Virus record (IMG/VR): IMGVR_UViG_3300029448_000057
Location: 1 to 53,259 of that record
Source of the DNA: a virus
Length of the DNA stretch: 53,259 nucleotides
Direction: 5' to 3' (one strand)
The position numbers were made by a program, and so were the translations under genes. The notes beneath the pieces are model-generated. The model searched no databases. It worked only from the letters and a program-made list of their open reading frames with translations, and was not told the DNA's origin. Positions 21,089 to 29,407 of this stretch are shown here, one piece after another (the first letter of the stretch is position 1; each line of letters opens with the position of its first letter).

Positions 21089-22578
21089 CTTGGAATGTCG
21101 TCCTTGGTCCACCTGGAACTGGAAAAACAACGTACCTTTTATCAAAAGTTGAGGAGCATTTAGAAAAAGGTACTCCTCCAGATAGGCTTGGTTACTTAGC
21201 TTTTACTAAAAAAGCAGCAAACGAGGCACTAGACAGAGCCATGGATAAGTTTGATTATAGTCCTGACGATTTACCATATTTTAGGACACTACACTCTCTT
21301 TGTTATCGTTGGCTAGGTTTTAATAAAAATGATGTATTAGCTAGAAGTGATCTTAGAGACCTTAGTATAAAAATAGGAGAGAAGATAAACTCAGCTTGGG
21401 ACGGTGAAAACTTAATGTCACTCAGTAGTAGTGGTGATGAAATGTTATTCCTAGAAAATATGGCTAGAAATAAATTACAAGATTATCGTAGTGCTTGGAA
21501 TGAATCTGCACCTGACATAAGTTTTATGCACTTTGATTGGTTTGTAAGGAATTATAAAGCATTTAAGCAAAGCAACTTTTTAATAGATTACACAGATATG
21601 CTTGATATGTTTTGTTCATCGCCAGATAAACCTAAACTCGAGGTACTAATTATAGACGAGGCACAGGATCTATCAGCTTTACAATGGCAGTGTGTAGCTA
21701 AGTTAGCAGAAGGTGTTGAGCATGTTTATATAGCTGGTGACGATGACCAAGCTATTTATAAGTGGGCAGGGGCTGATGTAAATCAGTTTATAAATCTAGA
21801 AGGTAAGTTAACCTACTTAAAACAATCTTACAGAGTTCCTCGTAAAGTACATGACGTGGCGTTAAGAATAGTCAAAAGGATAGGTAATAGAAAAGAAAAG
21901 GTTTGGGAACCTAGAAGTTTAGAAGGCACTGTAAACAGACATGTTAGTTTTGAACACATTGATATGTCGGTCGGTGAGTGGTTAGTTTTAGCTAGAAATA
22001 ATTACTTACTGACACAGGTTGAAGAACATTTAAGAAAGGTGGGTAAGGTTTACGAGAAAAATAGTAAGCCATCTGTGTCTCCTATATTACTCAATGCCAT
22101 ACTTGACTGGGAAAGGTTGAGAAAAGGTGAAAGAGTTCAGGCTGACAAGATACGAAAAATATATGGTTACATGAGAGCTGGTAAAGAAGTTCGTAGAGGT
22201 TTTAAAACTTTGAAGACTGCTGTAGGTGATGAGATGCTTTCAATACAGGATCTAAAGCGTGTGTATGGTTTAATGGTAGACACTATTTGGCATGAATGTT
22301 TCAAGCTCATAGGAAATACTCAAAGAGAATATCTTATATCTTGTTTGCGTAATAATGAGAAACTGTCTGAGTCTAAAATAAGGTTGAATACTATCCATGC
22401 CTCAAAAGGCGGTGAGTCTGAGAACGTGGTTATTTTGTCTGACATGGCTCGTAGGTCATACGATGAGTTATACACTAACCCTGATAATGAGTGTAGAACT
22501 TTTTATGTCGGTGTAACTAGAACTAAAAATAATTTACATTTAGTAAATGGTAAAACAAGAAGGGAGTTTATATTCTAA
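21085..22578 (+). CDS. SF1 (UvrD/Dda-type) DNA helicase
   Basis: 497 residues. Walker A GPPGTGKT (8-15), LAFTKKAANEAL (Ia), IIDEAQDLS (D191-E192-A193-Q194, motif II), AGDDDQAIYKWAGAD (III), LKQSYRVP (IV), NTIHASKGGESENVVIL (V) and YVGVTRTKNNLHLV (VI) are all present in order. The NTIHASKG and VTRT forms are typical of UvrD/Rep-like and Dda-like enzymes. The likely role is DNA unwinding at the fork or in recombination. ATGA coupling to the primase and one-base overlap with the next gene place it in the replication operon. Confidence 0.88.
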   Translation: MTWNVVLGPPGTGKTTYLLSKVEEHLEKGTPPDRLGYLAFTKKAANEALDRAMDKFDYSPDDLPYFRTLHSLCYRWLGFNKNDVLARSDLRDLSIKIGEKINSAWDGENLMSLSSSGDEMLFLENMARNKLQDYRSAWNESAPDISFMHFDWFVRNYKAFKQSNFLIDYTDMLDMFCSSPDKPKLEVLIIDEAQDLSALQWQCVAKLAEGVEHVYIAGDDDQAIYKWAGADVNQFINLEGKLTYLKQSYRVPRKVHDVALRIVKRIGNRKEKVWEPRSLEGTVNRHVSFEHIDMSVGEWLVLARNNYLLTQVEEHLRKVGKVYEKNSKPSVSPILLNAILDWERLRKGERVQADKIRKIYGYMRAGKEVRRGFKTLKTAVGDEMLSIQDLKRVYGLMVDTIWHECFKLIGNTQREYLISCLRNNEKLSESKIRLNTIHASKGGESENVVILSDMARRSYDELYTNPDNECRTFYVGVTRTKNNLHLVNGKTRREFIF

Positions 22579-23171
22579 TGATACTTAATTTTAAAAAATA
22601 TTTTGATTCTTTTGACCCAGAGTTTACTTTTTGGGATCCACCTGTAATACGAGATTATGGGGGTGGTAAAATTATAGGCAGACCAACACGTGGTTTTGGC
22701 GATGGTGTGTTTGAGTATGCTGGTAAATTAATGGATCCTGAACCTTGGGGAGCTGAAGACTTTATGATACCAATCAAAAAGAAAGCAGAAAAATTAGCTG
22801 GTACTATATTGGGCAAAGATGTAAACTTTACGTTTTGCCTGTGTGGGTATTATTCTACTAATGGTGAAGGATTGAATCACCACACCGACACAGTACCTAC
22901 AGAAGACGACTTAGTAATATCTATATCATTTGGTGCACCTCGCCTGTTTGAGTGGAGAGAGTATAACGCTGACATTAAAAAGTCTACAAATACTAGTGAA
23001 GTTATTCAGGCATTACACCTACTTGATTATACTACTGAGAATTATTTATTAGAACATGGGGATGCTTTAGTCTTTGATGGTAAATCACAGATGAGAGCTA
23101 CTCATGGTATACCAGATATTAAAGTACCAGCTGGTGAGAGGATAAACATGACTTTTAGAAGTGGTATTTAA
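22578..23171 (+). CDS. AlkB-like 2-oxoglutarate/Fe(II) dioxygenase
   Basis: 197 residues. The double-stranded beta-helix signature is complete: H102-T-D104 within NHHTDTVP, the SISFGAPRLFEWR strand pair, distal H176 in RATHGIP, and R188-INMTF-R194 (the AlkB RxxxxxR motif that binds 2-oxoglutarate and shapes the base pocket). AlkB proteins remove methyl lesions by oxidation; some relatives oxidise bases as a modification step. Being just upstream of thymine-modification-type genes leaves both repair and modification open. Probably a cytoplasmic enzyme on ssDNA or dsDNA. Confidence 0.85.
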   Translation: MILNFKKYFDSFDPEFTFWDPPVIRDYGGGKIIGRPTRGFGDGVFEYAGKLMDPEPWGAEDFMIPIKKKAEKLAGTILGKDVNFTFCLCGYYSTNGEGLNHHTDTVPTEDDLVISISFGAPRLFEWREYNADIKKSTNTSEVIQALHLLDYTTENYLLEHGDALVFDGKSQMRATHGIPDIKVPAGERINMTFRSGI

Positions 23172-23181
23172 TTGCTATACT

Positions 23182-23203
23182 TTTACTTTACAAGTAAAGT
23201 AAA
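23182..23203. promoter_or_regulatory. near-perfect 10+2+10 palindrome in a gene gap
   Basis: TTTACTTTAC (23182-23191), two bases AA, GTAAAGTAAA (23194-23203): a full match of ten-base arms in the 40-base gap before the next gene. The same 10-mer TTTACTTTAC recurs at 38599-38608 at a promoter-like site. With a TAAATA at 23205-23210 it could include a weak promoter, or be an operator or RNA hairpin. Confidence 0.5.
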
Positions 23204-23211
23204 CTAAATAT

Positions 23212-23691
23212 ATGAATATATTTGTTTTAGATAAAGATATAAAAACTGCCGCACAGATGCACTGTGACAAGCATGTATCTAAAATGATACTTGAGTCCGC
23301 ACAGATGCTTTGTACAGCACTCTGGAATAATTATCAAGACGCTCCATACAAACCTGTGCATGCTAAACACCCTTGTACTTTATGGGCTTCAGACAGTTTG
23401 GAAAACTGGGAGTGGCTTAGAGACTTTGCTATTTATTTAAATGAAGAGTTTTGCTGGAGGTACGATAGGAGCTGTAACCATAAATCAGCTGATGTAATAC
23501 TTTCTTTAACTAGACCTAATATAGAAAGTAAAGGGCTACAACAACACCCACAATGTATGCCAGATGAGTACAAAGTAACTAATGACCCTATACAAGCATA
23601 TAGAAATTATTATGTAGGAGAGAAACATTTTGCCGTCTGGACTAAGCGTGATACTCCTCGTTGGTATACAGAACATTTAGGAATTTTTTAA
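23212..23691 (+). CDS. conserved phage protein of the MNIFVLD/CDKH type
   Basis: 159 residues. Opens with MNIFVLDKDIKTAAQMHCDKHV, then HPCTLWASDSLENWEWL, a Lys/His-rich loop and DPIQAYRNYYVGEKHFAVW with a final TPRWYTEH. I recall this family as widespread in marine phages and usually unannotated. The CDKH helix faintly resembles the first helix of pyrimidine-dimer DNA glycosylases, but I would not assign that activity on this alone. Its position between an AlkB-like enzyme and a thymine-modification protein makes a DNA base-related role a reasonable guess. Good ATG, AT-rich upstream gap with a palindrome. Confidence 0.6.
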   Translation: MNIFVLDKDIKTAAQMHCDKHVSKMILESAQMLCTALWNNYQDAPYKPVHAKHPCTLWASDSLENWEWLRDFAIYLNEEFCWRYDRSCNHKSADVILSLTRPNIESKGLQQHPQCMPDEYKVTNDPIQAYRNYYVGEKHFAVWTKRDTPRWYTEHLGIF

Positions 23692-23698
23692 GGTAGAT

Positions 23699-24544
23699 AT
23701 GAAAGTAAGAGAAAAAAATATTGAAGGCTTTTTTAAGTATGTAAACGAAAGAGAGATGATTCGTATCCGTAAGGAAAGTGGTATGAACCCACCTTGGACA
23801 GAGGATAAAATATTAAAGGAGTTTAGTTTTTGTAACGTATCTAGAGAGGATGACCGTGTTACTAAATGGATAAGAGAAAACTGGAGAGAGCCATACGCTG
23901 ACCACCCCAATCTACCTTTCGCTATGGCGGTAGCTAGGCAAATTAATTGGCCAGATACTTTAGCCGACATAGGTTTTCCTGTAGAGTGGAAGCCTAGAGA
24001 GGTTAAAGCTATTATGCAAGCAAGGAAGGATGCAGGAGAAAAAGTCTACACAGGTGCTTATATGTTGACAGGAACTTTAGGTGGTTCTAAGATTGAGCAA
24101 ACAGTAGATAAAATTTTAACTCCCTTGTATAATAAACACCCAGAGATACTGGGTTATTCATTAGAATCAACATGGCGTAATTATCTACCATATCCAGGAT
24201 TTAGTGGTTTTATGGCTTATGAGGTCGTTACCGACTTAAGACACACTCATCACTTAGGTAATGCTGTAGATATACATAGCTGGGCTAATCCAGGTCCAGG
24301 TGCTAAACGTGGTATCAACAGAATTAATGGTTATGATTTAGATAACCGCATGACTATGGAGGAGTGGGTAAACGAGATGAAAGAGTTACTTGAAGAGTCT
24401 CCTTATCATTTAGAAGGGCATTTTACAAGGTGGTTAGAGATGAGAGATATTGAACATAACTTATGTGAGTTTGATAAGTACGAAAGAGTGAGGCTAGGGC
24501 AAGGTAGACCTAGAGCAAAATATAACTATGCAAATAGATCGTAA
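23699..24544 (+). CDS. thymine pyrophosphorylase / 5-hmdU kinase helical-domain protein
   Basis: 281 residues. Diagnostic segments in order: FFKYVNEREMIRIRKESG, PPWTEDKIL, FCNVSREDDRVTKWI, FAMAVARQINWPDTLA, EKVYTGAYML, GFSGFMAYEVVTDL, GPGAKRGINRI, and the C-terminal HNLCEFDKYERVRLGQGRPR. These are the hallmarks of the family annotated as 5-hmdU DNA kinase helical domain or alpha-glutamyl/putrescinyl thymine pyrophosphorylase, from the work of Iyer, Aravind and colleagues on DNA base hypermodification. The family is proposed to act on pyrophosphorylated hydroxymethyl-uracil in DNA, giving alpha-substituted thymines. No separate P-loop kinase is seen nearby. This is the strongest evidence for modified DNA here. 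Confidence 0.85.
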   Translation: MKVREKNIEGFFKYVNEREMIRIRKESGMNPPWTEDKILKEFSFCNVSREDDRVTKWIRENWREPYADHPNLPFAMAVARQINWPDTLADIGFPVEWKPREVKAIMQARKDAGEKVYTGAYMLTGTLGGSKIEQTVDKILTPLYNKHPEILGYSLESTWRNYLPYPGFSGFMAYEVVTDLRHTHHLGNAVDIHSWANPGPGAKRGINRINGYDLDNRMTMEEWVNEMKELLEESPYHLEGHFTRWLEMRDIEHNLCEFDKYERVRLGQGRPRAKYNYANRS

Positions 24545-24755
24545 AGCGTTATTAGAATCGGTTACAGATACAAGTTTAGGGTTCATAATAAATTTCCCTT
24601 TATCTTGGTTAGTTTTATTTCTAATGTTGATGTTTACTCAAGACGCACTATTAATATCAATAATACAAACTACTGTAATAACTGTAACTGCTATTATCAG
24701 AAGATACATTACAAGAATTTATTTTAGAGATTTAACTTATAAGGAGGAACAATGA
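24528..24755 (+). CDS. two-TM small membrane protein (DUF7220-like)
   Basis: 75 residues. Two hydrophobic stretches, SLGFIINFPLSWLVLFLML (~16-34) and ALLISIIQTTVITVTAII (~40-57), then a basic/aromatic tail RRYITRIYFRDL. The DTSLGFIINF...RRYITR pattern is the one I associate with DUF7220 phage proteins, function unknown. It overlaps the end of the pyrophosphorylase-type gene by 17 bases and the start of the glycosyltransferase-like gene by four, so it is a passenger or partner in this cassette. Confidence 0.6.
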   Translation: MQIDRKALLESVTDTSLGFIINFPLSWLVLFLMLMFTQDALLISIIQTTVITVTAIIRRYITRIYFRDLTYKEEQ

Positions 24756-25516
24756 AAATTTATATTCCCACTAGAGGAAGACCGCTTAATCAAGAAACTT
24801 TAAAATGGTTTCCTAAAGAAATGCAGACAGATGGTTCTGTAGTCTTAGTAATAGACGAAGACGAAAAAGATGAATACTTTAAATATAAAGATACACCTAA
24901 GATGATTGTACCTAAAGACTGTATAGGTATAGGTCCAAAGCGTAAGTACATTGTAGAAAATACAGATGACTCTCGTATAGTTATGTTAGACGATGACTTA
25001 CGTTTTTATGTTCGTAAAAGTCCAACAGATTGGCACTTACGTTATCTAGAATCAAATGAGTACCCAGCCTTGTTTGGTTTGCTTGATGAGTGGATGAGTC
25101 AGGACTATGCTCATGTAGGAATTAGTGCTAGAGAAGGTAACAACCGTGTAGAAGATTTATCTGTAGAGAACACTAGGTATATGAGGGTATTAGGTTACAA
25201 CTTAGATGTTTTTCCTGATGACGTAGAGTGGGGGAGAACTAAAGTGATGGAGGATTTTGACATAGCCTTACAACTATTAAGAAGAGGTAGAGCCAGTAAG
25301 ATAAGTTTTTACTATGCTCAGGGTCAAAAGTCTTCGAACGCTAAAGGTGGGTGTAGTGAATGGAGAACTATTGATGTACATAATGAGGGGGCTGAAAGGC
25401 TGCATGAGTTACACCCTGATTATGTCAAGGTGGTTGAAAAACAAACTAAAACAGCTTGGAATGGATTACCTCGTAAGGATGTAATCATAAGTTGGAAAAA
25501 AGCATATAGAGGTTAA
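24752..25516 (+). CDS. GT-A fold glycosyltransferase-like protein
   Basis: 254 residues. N-terminus IYIPTRGRPLNQETL is a nucleotide-sugar-binding start for a GT-A glycosyltransferase, and a DDD at residues 80-82 (VMLDDDLRF) is the metal-binding DxD-type motif. KVMEDFDIALQLLRRGRASK later resembles the acceptor/catalytic ED segment of GT2-like enzymes. Its place between a thymine pyrophosphorylase-type gene and a ThyA-family gene recalls the TET/JBP-associated glycosyltransferases predicted to decorate hydroxymethylated bases. It could instead act on a cell or virion glycan. Sugar and acceptor cannot be read from sequence. An AGGAGGA ribosome site precedes the ATG. Confidence 0.7.
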   Translation: MKIYIPTRGRPLNQETLKWFPKEMQTDGSVVLVIDEDEKDEYFKYKDTPKMIVPKDCIGIGPKRKYIVENTDDSRIVMLDDDLRFYVRKSPTDWHLRYLESNEYPALFGLLDEWMSQDYAHVGISAREGNNRVEDLSVENTRYMRVLGYNLDVFPDDVEWGRTKVMEDFDIALQLLRRGRASKISFYYAQGQKSSNAKGGCSEWRTIDVHNEGAERLHELHPDYVKVVEKQTKTAWNGLPRKDVIISWKKAYRG

Positions 25517-25518
25517 AA

Positions 25519-26547
25519 ATGCAAGTATTAACAGTTAGGAACGTAGAGGATGCCTTCTTACAAGGTATGAACCTTTTACAAGAAGACCATAATATTGAAA
25601 TAACAAGGAATGGTCAAGCATATGTTTGTCCTGAACCTGTAACCACAATATTTACAGAGCCTACAGAAAGAGTTATTTTTTGGGAGGAAAGAGATGCTAA
25701 CCCCTTTTTCCATTTTATGGAGGGACTATGGATGTTAGCAGGTCGTAATGATCTAAAGTCCATGGAGTTTTATAACAAACGCATGAGAGAGTACAGTGAT
25801 GATGGTGAGATCTTATGGGGAGCTTACGGTTGGCGATGGAGAGAGTATTTTAATAAAGATCAGCTACAAATAATTATCGATAGGCTAAATAAAAATAAAT
25901 CAGACAGGCGATGTGTATTACAGATGTGGGATGCTGTAGAAGACTTAAATAGGAACGGTGTTGATGTGCCTTGTAATACCCATATATATTTCCTTGTCCG
26001 TCATTGTGAACAGATGGGCTACCCTGTATTAGAGATGACTGTCTGTAATAGGTCAAACGATATAATCTGGGGAGCGTATGGGGCAAACGCAGTACACCTT
26101 TCTATGTTACAAGAATACGTGGCTAGTGCTATAGGTGTAAAGGTCGGTAAGTATAGACAGATTAGTAATAACTATCATGCATATAAAAAGATATATGACG
26201 AAATATATGAAGAGATGATGAAAAGAGATGCCTTTGATTTTTATACAACAAAATATCTTTTATCAAAAAACCCTTATACAATAGAAGAAGTAGAGCCTTA
26301 TCAGATGGTAAATACAGATTACAAGAAGTGGACGAGTGACTTACACTCTTTCATAGATCGCAAACCTTTTACTGATATGAGTCCTGATACTGATCCCTTT
26401 TTCTTAGAAGTAGCGTGTCCTATACAAGACGCATGGTATTTATCCAAAGAAGTTAGTAAGGAAGAGGCTTTACTTGAAATACAATACTGTAAAGCAACCG
26501 ACTGGGCTAAAGCCTGCTTTGAGTGGCTCACTGCTCGTGTTAAATAA
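25519..26547 (+). CDS. thymidylate synthase-family enzyme (ThyA-like, possibly dUMP hydroxymethylase)
   Basis: 342 residues. The catalytic cysteine is in DVPCNTHIYFLV (C152), with RSNDIIWGAYGANAVHL behind it. N190, the likely counterpart of E. coli Asn177, keeps it a dUMP- rather than dCMP-type enzyme. NPFFHFMEGLWMLAGRNDL and ILWGAYGWRWR are the folate/dUMP pocket segments. The enzyme adds a one-carbon unit to dUMP using methylene-tetrahydrofolate, giving either dTMP or, in some phages, hydroxymethyl-dUMP. The surrounding modification genes make the second option attractive. It is longer than bacterial ThyA (264), with an extra C-terminal region. Confidence 0.85.
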   Translation: MQVLTVRNVEDAFLQGMNLLQEDHNIEITRNGQAYVCPEPVTTIFTEPTERVIFWEERDANPFFHFMEGLWMLAGRNDLKSMEFYNKRMREYSDDGEILWGAYGWRWREYFNKDQLQIIIDRLNKNKSDRRCVLQMWDAVEDLNRNGVDVPCNTHIYFLVRHCEQMGYPVLEMTVCNRSNDIIWGAYGANAVHLSMLQEYVASAIGVKVGKYRQISNNYHAYKKIYDEIYEEMMKRDAFDFYTTKYLLSKNPYTIEEVEPYQMVNTDYKKWTSDLHSFIDRKPFTDMSPDTDPFFLEVACPIQDAWYLSKEVSKEEALLEIQYCKATDWAKACFEWLTARVK

Positions 26548-26556
26548 GGAGATTCA

Positions 26557-27237
26557 ATGATACACCAATGGTCTTATAGCAGGTTATCCTGTTTTGAAAA
26601 ATGTCCCAAACAAGCTGAATTTAAATTTGTAAAAAGGATAAAGGAACCTGGAAGTCCAGCTATGGACCGTGGTAAAGATATGCATAAACTGTGTGAGGAA
26701 TACATCCGTGGGCACTTTGATGAAATACCAAAAGAGTTAAAAGACTTTGAAGACGGTTTTAATTTATTAAAAGACTTACATGAAAAGGGTCAAGTGATAT
26801 GTGAAAGTGACTGGGCTTTTACCAAAGAATGGGAAAAAACTGGTTGGTTTGAAGAGGATACTTGGGGCAGAGCTAAAGTAGATGCGTTTGTTTATGACGA
26901 GGGTAATAGTAAAGAAGCTAGGGTCATTGACTTTAAAACTGGTCGTTATGATGGTAATCAAGATGCACATAAAGAACAGTGTGAGCTATATGGTTCTATA
27001 GCTTTGAAACGCTACCCCGAACTAGAAAAAATTATTACAGAGATGTGGTATTTAGATCATAATAAGATTGACAAATATGTTTATGATCAAGACAGTATCA
27101 ATATAAAAAGAAATAAAATAGAAGTGAGGGCTATTGAGATGACAGAAGCTACTGAGTTTCCTGCTAAACCTCAAAAGTTCAAATGTAAATGGTGCTACTT
27201 TGGTAGACAAAATATGTGTAGAGAGGCTGCAGTATGA
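26557..27237 (+). CDS. Cas4/RecB-type PD-(D/E)XK nuclease with Fe-S cysteines
   Basis: 226 residues. WSYSRLSCFEKCP at the N-terminus, D109, then VIDFKTGR (D125, K127), the metal-binding core of the PD-(D/E)XK fold, and QCELYGSIALKRYP. Cysteines near both ends (C12 or C16, and C210, C213, C221 in KCKWCYFGRQNMC) match the 4Fe-4S arrangement of Cas4/AddB-like nucleases. The likely role is end resection in recombination. No cas1, cas2 or array is nearby, so it is not a CRISPR gene here. The start overlaps no gene; the stop overlaps the next gene by four. Confidence 0.85.
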   Translation: MIHQWSYSRLSCFEKCPKQAEFKFVKRIKEPGSPAMDRGKDMHKLCEEYIRGHFDEIPKELKDFEDGFNLLKDLHEKGQVICESDWAFTKEWEKTGWFEEDTWGRAKVDAFVYDEGNSKEARVIDFKTGRYDGNQDAHKEQCELYGSIALKRYPELEKIITEMWYLDHNKIDKYVYDQDSINIKRNKIEVRAIEMTEATEFPAKPQKFKCKWCYFGRQNMCREAAV

Positions 27238-27530
27238 CAACAAATATAAAAATGATAAAAATATTAGCTATGAAAGACGTTGATGACCTTGAAAAGTCAG
27301 AGAAGTCTTATGGGGATAGTTGGCGTAAGTATGACGGTATAAGTGCGTTTATGAATTTAGCTCGTAAATGGGATCGTATAGAGAACCAATCTAAAAATAA
27401 AAAGTATGATTTATTTGAGGCTATAAAAGAGGACATGTCTGATGAAGGCATATTAGATGACATACGAGATTTAAGGAGATATTGTTTATTAATAGAAAGC
27501 TATATGCTAGAACATCATTATAAGAAATAA
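27234..27530 (+). CDS. small phage protein, possibly Nmad1/DUF1599-like
   Basis: 98 residues, compact and helical. SYGDSWRKYDG, then FMNLARKWDRIE and ILDDIRDLRRYCLLIESYM, give a 'Y-G-x-S-W ... KxxRI ... DLxxYxxLI' order that resembles Nmad1 (nucleotide-modification-associated domain 1, DUF1599) proteins. Nmad1 members occur beside DNA base modification genes, which is the context here. By eye the match is suggestive, not firm. Both ends overlap neighbours by one to four bases, including the PolA start. Confidence 0.5.
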   Translation: MTTNIKMIKILAMKDVDDLEKSEKSYGDSWRKYDGISAFMNLARKWDRIENQSKNKKYDLFEAIKEDMSDEGILDDIRDLRRYCLLIESYMLEHHYKK

Positions 27531-29407
27531 TGTTACAAGAGTCTTTTTTTAAACCAGACTCTGATTGGAGTCCGCCTACAAGTTTTCCTAATCTAACTAC
27601 TGCTAAAGAAATAGCCATAGATTTAGAAACTTATGATCCTTTGCTACTTACTCATGGTCCAAGCTGGGCATTAGGTCAAGGTAGGATTATAGGTATCTGT
27701 GTCGCTACTGAAGGATACAAGGGTTATTTTCCTGTAGCTCATGAGAACGGTGCTAATTTAGATAAAGGTGTGGTTTACAGGTGGTTAGCTAATTTATTAG
27801 TTTGTAAGAACGATAAAATTTTTCATAACGCACAGTATGACGTAGGTTGGTTATTATCTGAAGGCTTTATTATTAATGGTAAGATACACGATACTATGAT
27901 GGCTGCTCCTTTAATAAATGAAAATGAGTACAGTTATTCATTAAATAATTTAGGTAAAAGGTTTTTAAATGAAATAAAAGATGAGTCCCTGTTGACAGAG
28001 GCAGCAGAGGCTTTAGGTATTAATCCTAAGTCAGAGATGTATAAATTAGAACCTAAGTATGTAGGTTTATATGGAGAACAAGATGCTGACTTAACTTACA
28101 GGTTATGGCAGGTATTAAAAAAGAAATTAGTAGAGGAGGGTGTAGAGGAAATATATGAGCTTGAGTCATCACTCATTAGAGTATTAATTGACATGCGTAA
28201 ACGTGGTGTAAGAGTTGACTTAGATAAAGCTGAACAGGTCGGTAAAAAACTAGAGAAGGAAGAAAACAAATTACTTGATCAAATTAAAAAAGATTATGGC
28301 TATCGCCCTGATCTATGGTCAGCAGCCTCTGTGGCACAGGTATTTGATAGAGCTGGGTTAAGCTACCCTACCTCGCCTAAATTAAAAGCTCCAAGTTTTA
28401 CAGCTGTGTGGTTAGAAGATCATAACCATAAGTTGCCTTTAGCTATCGGTAAGGCTAGAAAAATCAATAAAGCTAGAACTACTTTTATAGATAAGATGAT
28501 TATGGAACATCAGGTCAAAGGTAGGTTGCACGGTGAGTTACACCCATTAAGGTCAGACGACGGTGGTACTGTTACAGGAAGGTTTAGTTCAAGTAACCCT
28601 AACTTACAGCAAGTACCTGCTAGAGACCCAGAACTTGGACCTATGATACGTTCTTTGTTTTTACCTGAAGAAGATATGCACTGGGGTTGTTTTGATTACT
28701 CACAACAAGAACCTAGACTTACTGTGCATTATTCTGTAATGACTAATCAACAAGGGGCACAAGAAGCTGCAGATGAGTACCGTAACGAAAATGCAGACTT
28801 TCACCAGATAGTTGCTGACATGGCTAACATAAGTCGTAAAGAGGCAAAAGATATTAATCTTGGTCTAAGCTACGGTATGGGTAAAGAAAAGCTGACTAAG
28901 CAGTTAGGTATAAGTGTAGAAGAAGCGGAAAGGTTGTTTGAACAGTACCATGCAAGAGTGCCTTTTGTCCGTGGTCTACGAGACAGTGCAGCACGACTGG
29001 CTGCTAATAGAGGGTACATAACCACACTATTAGGTCGTAAGTGTAGGTTTAACTTATACGAGCCAAAGTTTGATAGAAATACTCCGTATCCTTACGAGAA
29101 AGCTATAGAGGTTTATGGAGATAAAATTAAAAGGGCTTTTACATATAAAGCTATGAATCGATTAATACAAGGTTCAGCAGCAGATATGACTAAGAAAGCA
29201 ATGTTAAATTTGTATAGGGAGGGGTTTTTAGCACATGCTCAAGTACACGATGAATTAGATATTTCAGTGGGGGATAAAAAAGAGTGTGACATAGTAGTTG
29301 AGATTATGCGTGACTGTGTTACACTTAAAGTTCCTAATAAAGTTGATGCTGAGATAGGTGTAAACTGGGGGAGTGTTGAAGATTATAAGGAGTATTTTGC
29401 TAAGTAA
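27530..29407 (+). CDS. polA: family A DNA polymerase with 3'-5' exonuclease
   Basis: 625 residues. The exonuclease DEDD motifs are D31-L-E33 (AIDLETYDP), HNAQYDVGW, and YGEQDADLTYRLW. In the polymerase, motif A is GCFDYSQQEPRLT (D389), motif B RKEAKDINLGLSYGMG, and motif C HAQVHDELDIS (H573-D574-E575). It lacks a 5'-3' exonuclease domain. In motif B the residue after INL's asparagine is Leu444, the position equivalent to E. coli Phe762, where phages carry Phe, Tyr or Leu. No CxxCxGxG DnaJ-like insert is seen. Genome replication enzyme. Its ATG overlaps the previous stop. Confidence 0.92.
   Translation: MLQESFFKPDSDWSPPTSFPNLTTAKEIAIDLETYDPLLLTHGPSWALGQGRIIGICVATEGYKGYFPVAHENGANLDKGVVYRWLANLLVCKNDKIFHNAQYDVGWLLSEGFIINGKIHDTMMAAPLINENEYSYSLNNLGKRFLNEIKDESLLTEAAEALGINPKSEMYKLEPKYVGLYGEQDADLTYRLWQVLKKKLVEEGVEEIYELESSLIRVLIDMRKRGVRVDLDKAEQVGKKLEKEENKLLDQIKKDYGYRPDLWSAASVAQVFDRAGLSYPTSPKLKAPSFTAVWLEDHNHKLPLAIGKARKINKARTTFIDKMIMEHQVKGRLHGELHPLRSDDGGTVTGRFSSSNPNLQQVPARDPELGPMIRSLFLPEEDMHWGCFDYSQQEPRLTVHYSVMTNQQGAQEAADEYRNENADFHQIVADMANISRKEAKDINLGLSYGMGKEKLTKQLGISVEEAERLFEQYHARVPFVRGLRDSAARLAANRGYITTLLGRKCRFNLYEPKFDRNTPYPYEKAIEVYGDKIKRAFTYKAMNRLIQGSAADMTKKAMLNLYREGFLAHAQVHDELDISVGDKKECDIVVEIMRDCVTLKVPNKVDAEIGVNWGSVEDYKEYFAK

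Follow-up and report, generated by a model that had tools for sequence, protein, structure and literature searches.

Gene content of the cassette

The linear IMG/VR virus contig IMGVR_UViG_3300029448_000057 (53,259 bases; this whole stretch is referred to below as the window) carries a candidate DNA hypermodification cassette directly upstream of a family A DNA polymerase gene (polA), with genes for an HMUDK_hel protein, a TET-associated glycosyltransferase (TAGT) and a ThyA-family enzyme. From primase to polA, all open reading frames (ORFs) lie on the + strand, with intergenic gaps of -17 to +40 bp. Their order is primase, UvrD-like helicase, AlkB-like dioxygenase, phrog_624 protein, HMUDK_hel, DUF7220 protein, TAGT, ThyA-family enzyme, PD-(D/E)XK exonuclease, a 98-aa protein and the polymerase.

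The window polymerase is 48-51% identical to those of HTVC023P, HTVC027P and 023Pt_psg01, and the large terminase (terL) is 56-61% identical to its counterparts in HTVC023P-type phages, which places the window with these pelagiphages. According to the passages on such cassettes in Bolanos et al. 2022 (PMC9599517), genes for a thymidylate synthase and aG/PT-PPlase1 adjoin polA in this group, in some cases joined by genes for a 5'-deoxynucleotidase and a TAGT-like glucosyltransferase, an arrangement likened there to phage M6 and read as M6-like thymidine hypermodification. The co-location of these genes was thus published earlier and is not new; the missing kinase and amino acid:DNA transferase (ADDT) are not remarked on in those passages. 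The window shares this arrangement, although it lacks the HD nucleotidase described there for some cassettes. In profile searches of the HTVC023P, 023Pt_psg01 and DSL-LC04 records, HMUDK_hel and TAGT were both absent.

The HMUDK_hel / aGPT-Pplase1 protein (281 aa, 23699..24544) matches PF18723 with an E-value of 1.4e-43 and 149.7 bits (curated cut-off, 25), and shares 40% identity with gp55 of Pseudomonas phage M6. Residues R18, F44, R49, D52, F171, D179, G199, G201, G205, C256, E257 and K260, invariant in both kinase- and glycosyltransferase-partnered homologues, are all present in the window protein. A reading made from the sequence alone (the sequence-only reading) had seen in it the motifs of 5-hmdU kinase helical-domain / thymine pyrophosphorylase proteins. 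The family assignment stands, but the label 'thymine pyrophosphorylase' is no guide to what the protein does, because the transfer that follows phosphorylation belongs to PF18724 (M6 gp51 and PaMx11 gp46), which is absent from the window. For the AlphaFold2 model (pLDDT 95.7), the best solved structure is 8z2n, the 5-PmdU glycinyltransferase PaMx11 gp46 (Foldseek probability 0.97, E 0.09, TM 0.40-0.46). Sequence homology between HMUDK_hel and the ADDT was rejected (hhalign probability 5%), leaving structural resemblance alone. We propose that the protein is a subunit that presents or targets 5-hydroxymethyl-deoxyuridine (5-hmdU).

The TAGT, a GT-A-type glycosyltransferase (24752..25516), matches PF20691 (2.3e-20; 73.8 bits, cut-off 27.5) and carries a DDD metal motif at residues 80-82, as the sequence-only reading had described. 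It also matches phrog_842 (beta-glucosyl-HMC-alpha-glucosyltransferase, 1.7e-49). Its proposed role is the transfer of a sugar to 5-hmdU in DNA. The TET/JBP oxygenase expected beside a TAGT was not found; the one oxygenase examined (22578-23171) is ALKBH2/3-like. No natural fusion of HMUDK_hel to a glycosyltransferase was seen in the loci retrieved.

The third enzyme is a predicted dUMP-type pyrimidine hydroxymethylase of the ThyA family (342 aa, 25519..26547; PF00303, 2.4e-20; phrog_5131, 2.6e-111). Over 99% of its length it shares 45% identity with enzymes of the M6 group, some of which are annotated as deoxyuridylate hydroxymethyltransferases. Alignment with Escherichia coli ThyA equates the catalytic C152 with C146 and the dUMP-selective N190 with N177, in agreement with the sequence-only reading, and every E. 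coli position checked is kept (E58, Y94, C146, R166, S167, D169, N177, H207 and Y209). The T4-type dCMP hydroxymethylase and the Microbacterium phage enzymes have a D next to the N177 column. Given N190 and these residue columns, dUMP is favoured as the substrate of the window enzyme. By sequence family and N190, it would correspond to the dUMP hydroxymethylase of the M6-type pathway.

Kinase and amino acid:DNA transferase

In phage M6, gp54 belongs to the 5-hmdU kinase family (PF18748), gp55 is the HMUDK_hel protein and gp51 belongs to the ADDT family (PF18724). The kinase gene lies directly upstream of HMUDK_hel in both M6 and PaMx11; in both records it is labelled 'terminase small subunit' (L001:5411-5974 and L008:5429-5998). 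In Bacillus phage Goe26 (L173:5056-6966), the two are fused in a 636-aa protein, with PF18748 at 35-193 and PF18723 at 312-597. The window shares with the 5-hmdU DNA kinases of Goe26 and SP10 their C-terminal HMUDK_hel domain but lacks the fused P-loop kinase domain.

A pattern scan of all ORFs of the record detected GxxxxGK[ST] only in the UvrD-like helicase, and no P-loop kinase was found in the window. No relatives of M6 gp51 or gp54 were detected there (gp54 by tblastn on the whole record), nor any match to the radical SAM or PLP accessory genes of M6. In ten near-complete relatives (59-65 kb), each carrying HMUDK_hel and TAGT, PF18748 and PF18724 had no match. A hidden kinase was rejected on the basis of the P-loop scan and the tblastn search with gp54 on the whole record, together with PF18748 searches of related records. 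The sequence-only reading had seen no obvious P-loop 5-hmdU kinase, and this absence proved consistent across about 100 related marine loci, which have a TAGT instead. The best reading is that the amino-acid branch of the M6-type pathway is not used in the window.

Partner exchange across HMUDK_hel relatives

Among 62 representative HMUDK_hel proteins, 20 were partnered by a kinase, 31 by a TAGT, three by an unrelated GT-B glycosyltransferase (verified) and one by both kinase and TAGT; the rest had neither. HMUDK_hel was present in 28 of the 32 records of the first set, accompanied by TAGT in 14, by a kinase in 11, by both in 0 and by neither in three. In a distant set of 30 contigs, 12 had TAGT only, eight a kinase only, one both and nine neither. 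Overall, 13 records contained ADDT, and the kinase was present in 12 of these. All 44 loci retrieved with a TAGT query contained ThyA and none (0/44) a kinase; HMUDK_hel was present in all but two, both cut at contig ends. Many contigs are fragmentary, so absence in any one of them is weak evidence. The TAGT-only state was seen in marine phages, in Brevibacterium phage LuckyBarnes and in Microbacterium phages.

The GT-B glycosyltransferases were found near HMUDK_hel in L136, L150 and L151, among the contigs with neither kinase nor TAGT. Members of the same GT-B family lie beside or between HMUDK_hel and ThyA in L183 and L184, which come from a different collection and have no kinase or TAGT. 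In L136 (10794-13606), a cupin, an FkbM-type methyltransferase, the GT-B glycosyltransferase and a dUTPase-like ORF occupy the stretch from HMUDK_hel to ThyA, as if the sugar were further methylated. L147 was rejected as a GT-B locus, as its upstream fragment has no Pfam match and is missed by the GT-B profile, and is now counted as having neither partner. Around its HMUDK_hel gene, ahead of ThyA (L147:596-3022), are genes for a PIG-L-like deacetylase, an APS-kinase-like and a sulfotransferase-like protein, possibly pointing to a sulfated, de-acetylated DNA sugar.

On a tree of the 62 HMUDK_hel proteins, computed with L147 still labelled GT-B, the TAGT label changes 10 times (at least seven changes forced by supported branches) and the kinase label eight times (at least six forced). 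The tree has long branches and its deep positions are unsure. Sisters with different partners include L140 (kinase) and L150 (GT-B), L151 (GT-B) and L156 (TAGT), and L128 (TAGT) and L136 (GT-B). Because the chemistry of the partner changes while HMUDK_hel does not, we infer that HMUDK_hel handles the common substrate, a 5-hydroxymethyl-pyrimidine in DNA. The preference of the M6 modification for TG/TC has been attributed to the kinase (PMC6449724); it could reside in HMUDK_hel.

Proposed pathway and alternatives

On balance, we lean towards the view that the product of the cassette is glycosylated 5-hydroxymethyl-uracil within the DNA of the phage. The ThyA-family enzyme would turn dUMP into 5-hmdUMP, judging by its family and residues; cell kinases would raise this to 5-hmdUTP, which the family A polymerase of the phage would incorporate, replacing some of the thymine. 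The 98-aa protein may assist by destroying a competing nucleotide. HMUDK_hel would then bind 5-hmdU in DNA, with a probable preference for certain sequence contexts, and present the base to a catalytic partner, which would be the 5-hmdU DNA kinase in M6-type phages and the TAGT in the window. Through a predicted contact with HMUDK_hel, the TAGT would add a sugar to the 5-hydroxymethyl group, and the glycosylated product would shield the phage DNA from host nucleases. This agrees with the sequence-only proposal of 5-hmdU made from dUMP and then decorated, perhaps by glycosylation, as far as gene families can indicate.

M6 and PaMx11 share with the window HMUDK_hel and a ThyA-type hydroxymethylase beside polA, whereas M6 adds the kinase, the ADDT and the radical SAM- and PLP-type genes and the window has a TAGT instead. 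Glycosyltransfer is predicted to replace phosphorylation and amino-acid transfer in a known kind of phage 5-hmdU hypermodification cassette. As in T6-type glucosylation of hydroxymethylcytosine (hmC), the TAGT adjoins a ThyA-family hydroxymethylase, but this is of the dUMP type (N190) and not the dCMP type, no alpha- or beta-glucosyltransferase was seen in the window, and HMUDK_hel is present. LuckyBarnes and the Microbacterium phages Luna18, Juanyo and Mercedes also combine HMUDK_hel, a ThyA-family enzyme and TAGT without the PF18748 kinase; their sequences are distant from the window, and the Microbacterium phages have a dCMP-type ThyA and a thymidylate-kinase-like gene.

More tentatively, and with rather less confidence than in the glycosylated product, we suggest that HMUDK_hel is a general base-presenting or targeting module whose partner has been exchanged among P-loop kinase, GT-A and GT-B enzymes, so that abundant marine phages would have turned the machinery for amino-acid-modified thymine to the production of sugar-modified 5-hmdU.

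Several observations weigh against parts of this interpretation. Many bacteria (L190-L253; among them Clostridia, Bacilli and cyanobacteria) carry an HMUDK_hel homologue as a solo chromosomal gene, for the most part with no ThyA, kinase or TAGT in the vicinity, and the family may therefore possess an activity of its own. The 40-kb genome MW202897 (L002) encodes a TAGT, a dUMP-type ThyA and an HD protein without HMUDK_hel, which is therefore not always required for TAGT. In three Microbacterium phages (L114, L115 and L116), the ThyA that accompanies HMUDK_hel and TAGT is of the dCMP type (D), and a thymidylate-kinase-like protein is also encoded, so HMUDK_hel is not a strict marker of 5-hmdU. 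Phage contig L152 is the only one retrieved in which kinase, ADDT and TAGT occur together. The exclusion statistic (1/20/34/7, Fisher 1.7e-9) takes no account of relatedness, and a phylogenetic independent-pairs test, with only five supported pairs, cannot reach 0.05. The named TAGT/phrog_842 examples described in PMC13390438 act on glucosyl-hmC in T6-like phages. Lastly, N190 cannot tell a hydroxymethylase from a true thymidylate synthase.

Two side observations concern these loci. The solo chromosomal genes may have a role in repair or defence, and in Hyphomicrobium (L242:7197-8972) a thymidylate-kinase-like P-loop (EGPDGVGKST) is joined to HMUDK_hel in a 591-aa ORF. In L152, a sugar may perhaps be placed on amino-acid-modified thymidine.

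The alternative that survives best, although we consider it unlikely, is that HMUDK_hel, rather than being a presenting subunit, catalyses a reaction itself, such as a shared transfer or hydrolysis step on 5-hmdU in DNA, and that the TAGT glycosylates independently. The strong conservation of its polar residues, the solo homologues without partners and the best, though weak, structural match to an enzyme (8z2n) argue for such a role. In most of the phage loci that contain ThyA, however, a base-modifying catalytic partner is encoded next to HMUDK_hel or fused with it, and the profile-profile comparison with the ADDT was not significant.

Less probable still is an M6-like amino-acid branch, with the kinase unrecognised or supplied by the host, in which 5-hmdU would be phosphorylated and substituted before the TAGT added a sugar. 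The HMUDK_hel and ThyA of the window are those of M6-type phages, and L152 provides a precedent for all three enzymes on one contig. Against this stand the ten near-complete relatives without kinase and ADDT, the helicase as sole P-loop ORF and the unmatched M6 accessory genes. We regard ordinary nucleotide metabolism as very improbable: ThyA would make dTMP, as the occurrence of N190 in true thymidylate synthases allows, the TAGT would act on another substrate and HMUDK_hel would be a relic, yet the enzyme groups with the M6-group hydroxymethylase homologues (phrog_5131), ThyA accompanies TAGT in every TAGT-query locus, HMUDK_hel is kept except in truncated contigs, and its invariant residues are retained. 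Glycosylation of hmC instead of hmU is the least likely of all: the substrates of T6-like TAGT/phrog_842 members and the dCMP-type ThyA of the Microbacterium phages favour it, but the window ThyA has N where the T4-type enzyme has D and is closest to the M6-group dUMP enzymes.

Accessory and neighbouring genes

The AlkB-family 2-oxoglutarate-Fe(II) dioxygenase (22578..23171; PF13532, 1e-16) has the motifs described in the sequence-only reading (HxD at 102, H160 and R188xxxxxR194). Its best solved relatives are ALKBH3 and ALKBH2, and its gene is found in 33 of the 44 TAGT-query loci at variable positions. TET-like oxidation by this protein was rejected, because the nearest solved relatives are these repair enzymes and not TET/JBP, and because related phages lack the gene or have it elsewhere. 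The protein is probably an accessory, dispensable DNA repair enzyme.

The 98-aa protein with YGDSW and DLRRY motifs (27234..27530) is encoded in 43 of the 44 TAGT-query loci and is thus cassette-associated; its family also occurs in some kinase-type loci (L140). No Pfam family matches it above cut-off, nor does any PHROG. It had been likened to Nmad1, which we take to be DUF1599 (PF07659), but this was rejected, as PF07659 gave no match at E<=10 and none among 32 family members. Profile searches accordingly agreed with four of the five families proposed for the cassette, the fifth being Nmad1. Visual comparison showed a stretch resembling the protein in the C-terminal part of the ThyA proteins of LuckyBarnes and Montesquieu. 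Its model has four helices, and the top Foldseek matches, which are insignificant, are MazG-like; the protein is possibly, on this weak indication, a MazG-like nucleotide pyrophosphohydrolase. A dTTPase has been described in PhiW-14 infection (PMC5977210), which makes a nucleotide-cleaning role plausible.

Three genes of the run had been left out of the sequence-only reading. A 159-aa phrog_624 protein ('DNA binding protein'; 23212..23691, 1.5e-51) is encoded 7 bp upstream of HMUDK_hel, a placement retained in most marine loci, and is present in 36 of the 44 TAGT-query loci. A small membrane-like DUF7220 protein (75 aa, 24528..24755; PF23858, 1.8e-7) overlaps both its neighbours; among the loci compared, it was found only in the window and in three loci with an identical cassette (L004, L009 and L075) and is not a conserved cassette member. 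The PD-(D/E)XK exonuclease (26557..27237; PF12705, 3.2e-16) is a replication/recombination neighbour. Downstream of the cassette, the family A DNA polymerase (27530..29407; PF00476, 2e-60) has DpoZ as its best model, yet scores 320 bits against a cut-off of 500 bits.

Implications

The partner exchange suggests that one base-handling part is retained in phages while the chemistry is replaced. If the proposed pathway is correct, the base J-like modification of a widespread marine phage group starts from a nucleotide precursor and not from oxidation within DNA, and the protein whose name derives from the 5-hmdU kinase would have a function separable from the kinase. Gene content would then allow a prediction of which form of modified thymidine, amino-acid or sugar, a given phage contains, and a simple question would be raised, namely what HMUDK_hel does to DNA alone and with each of its partners.

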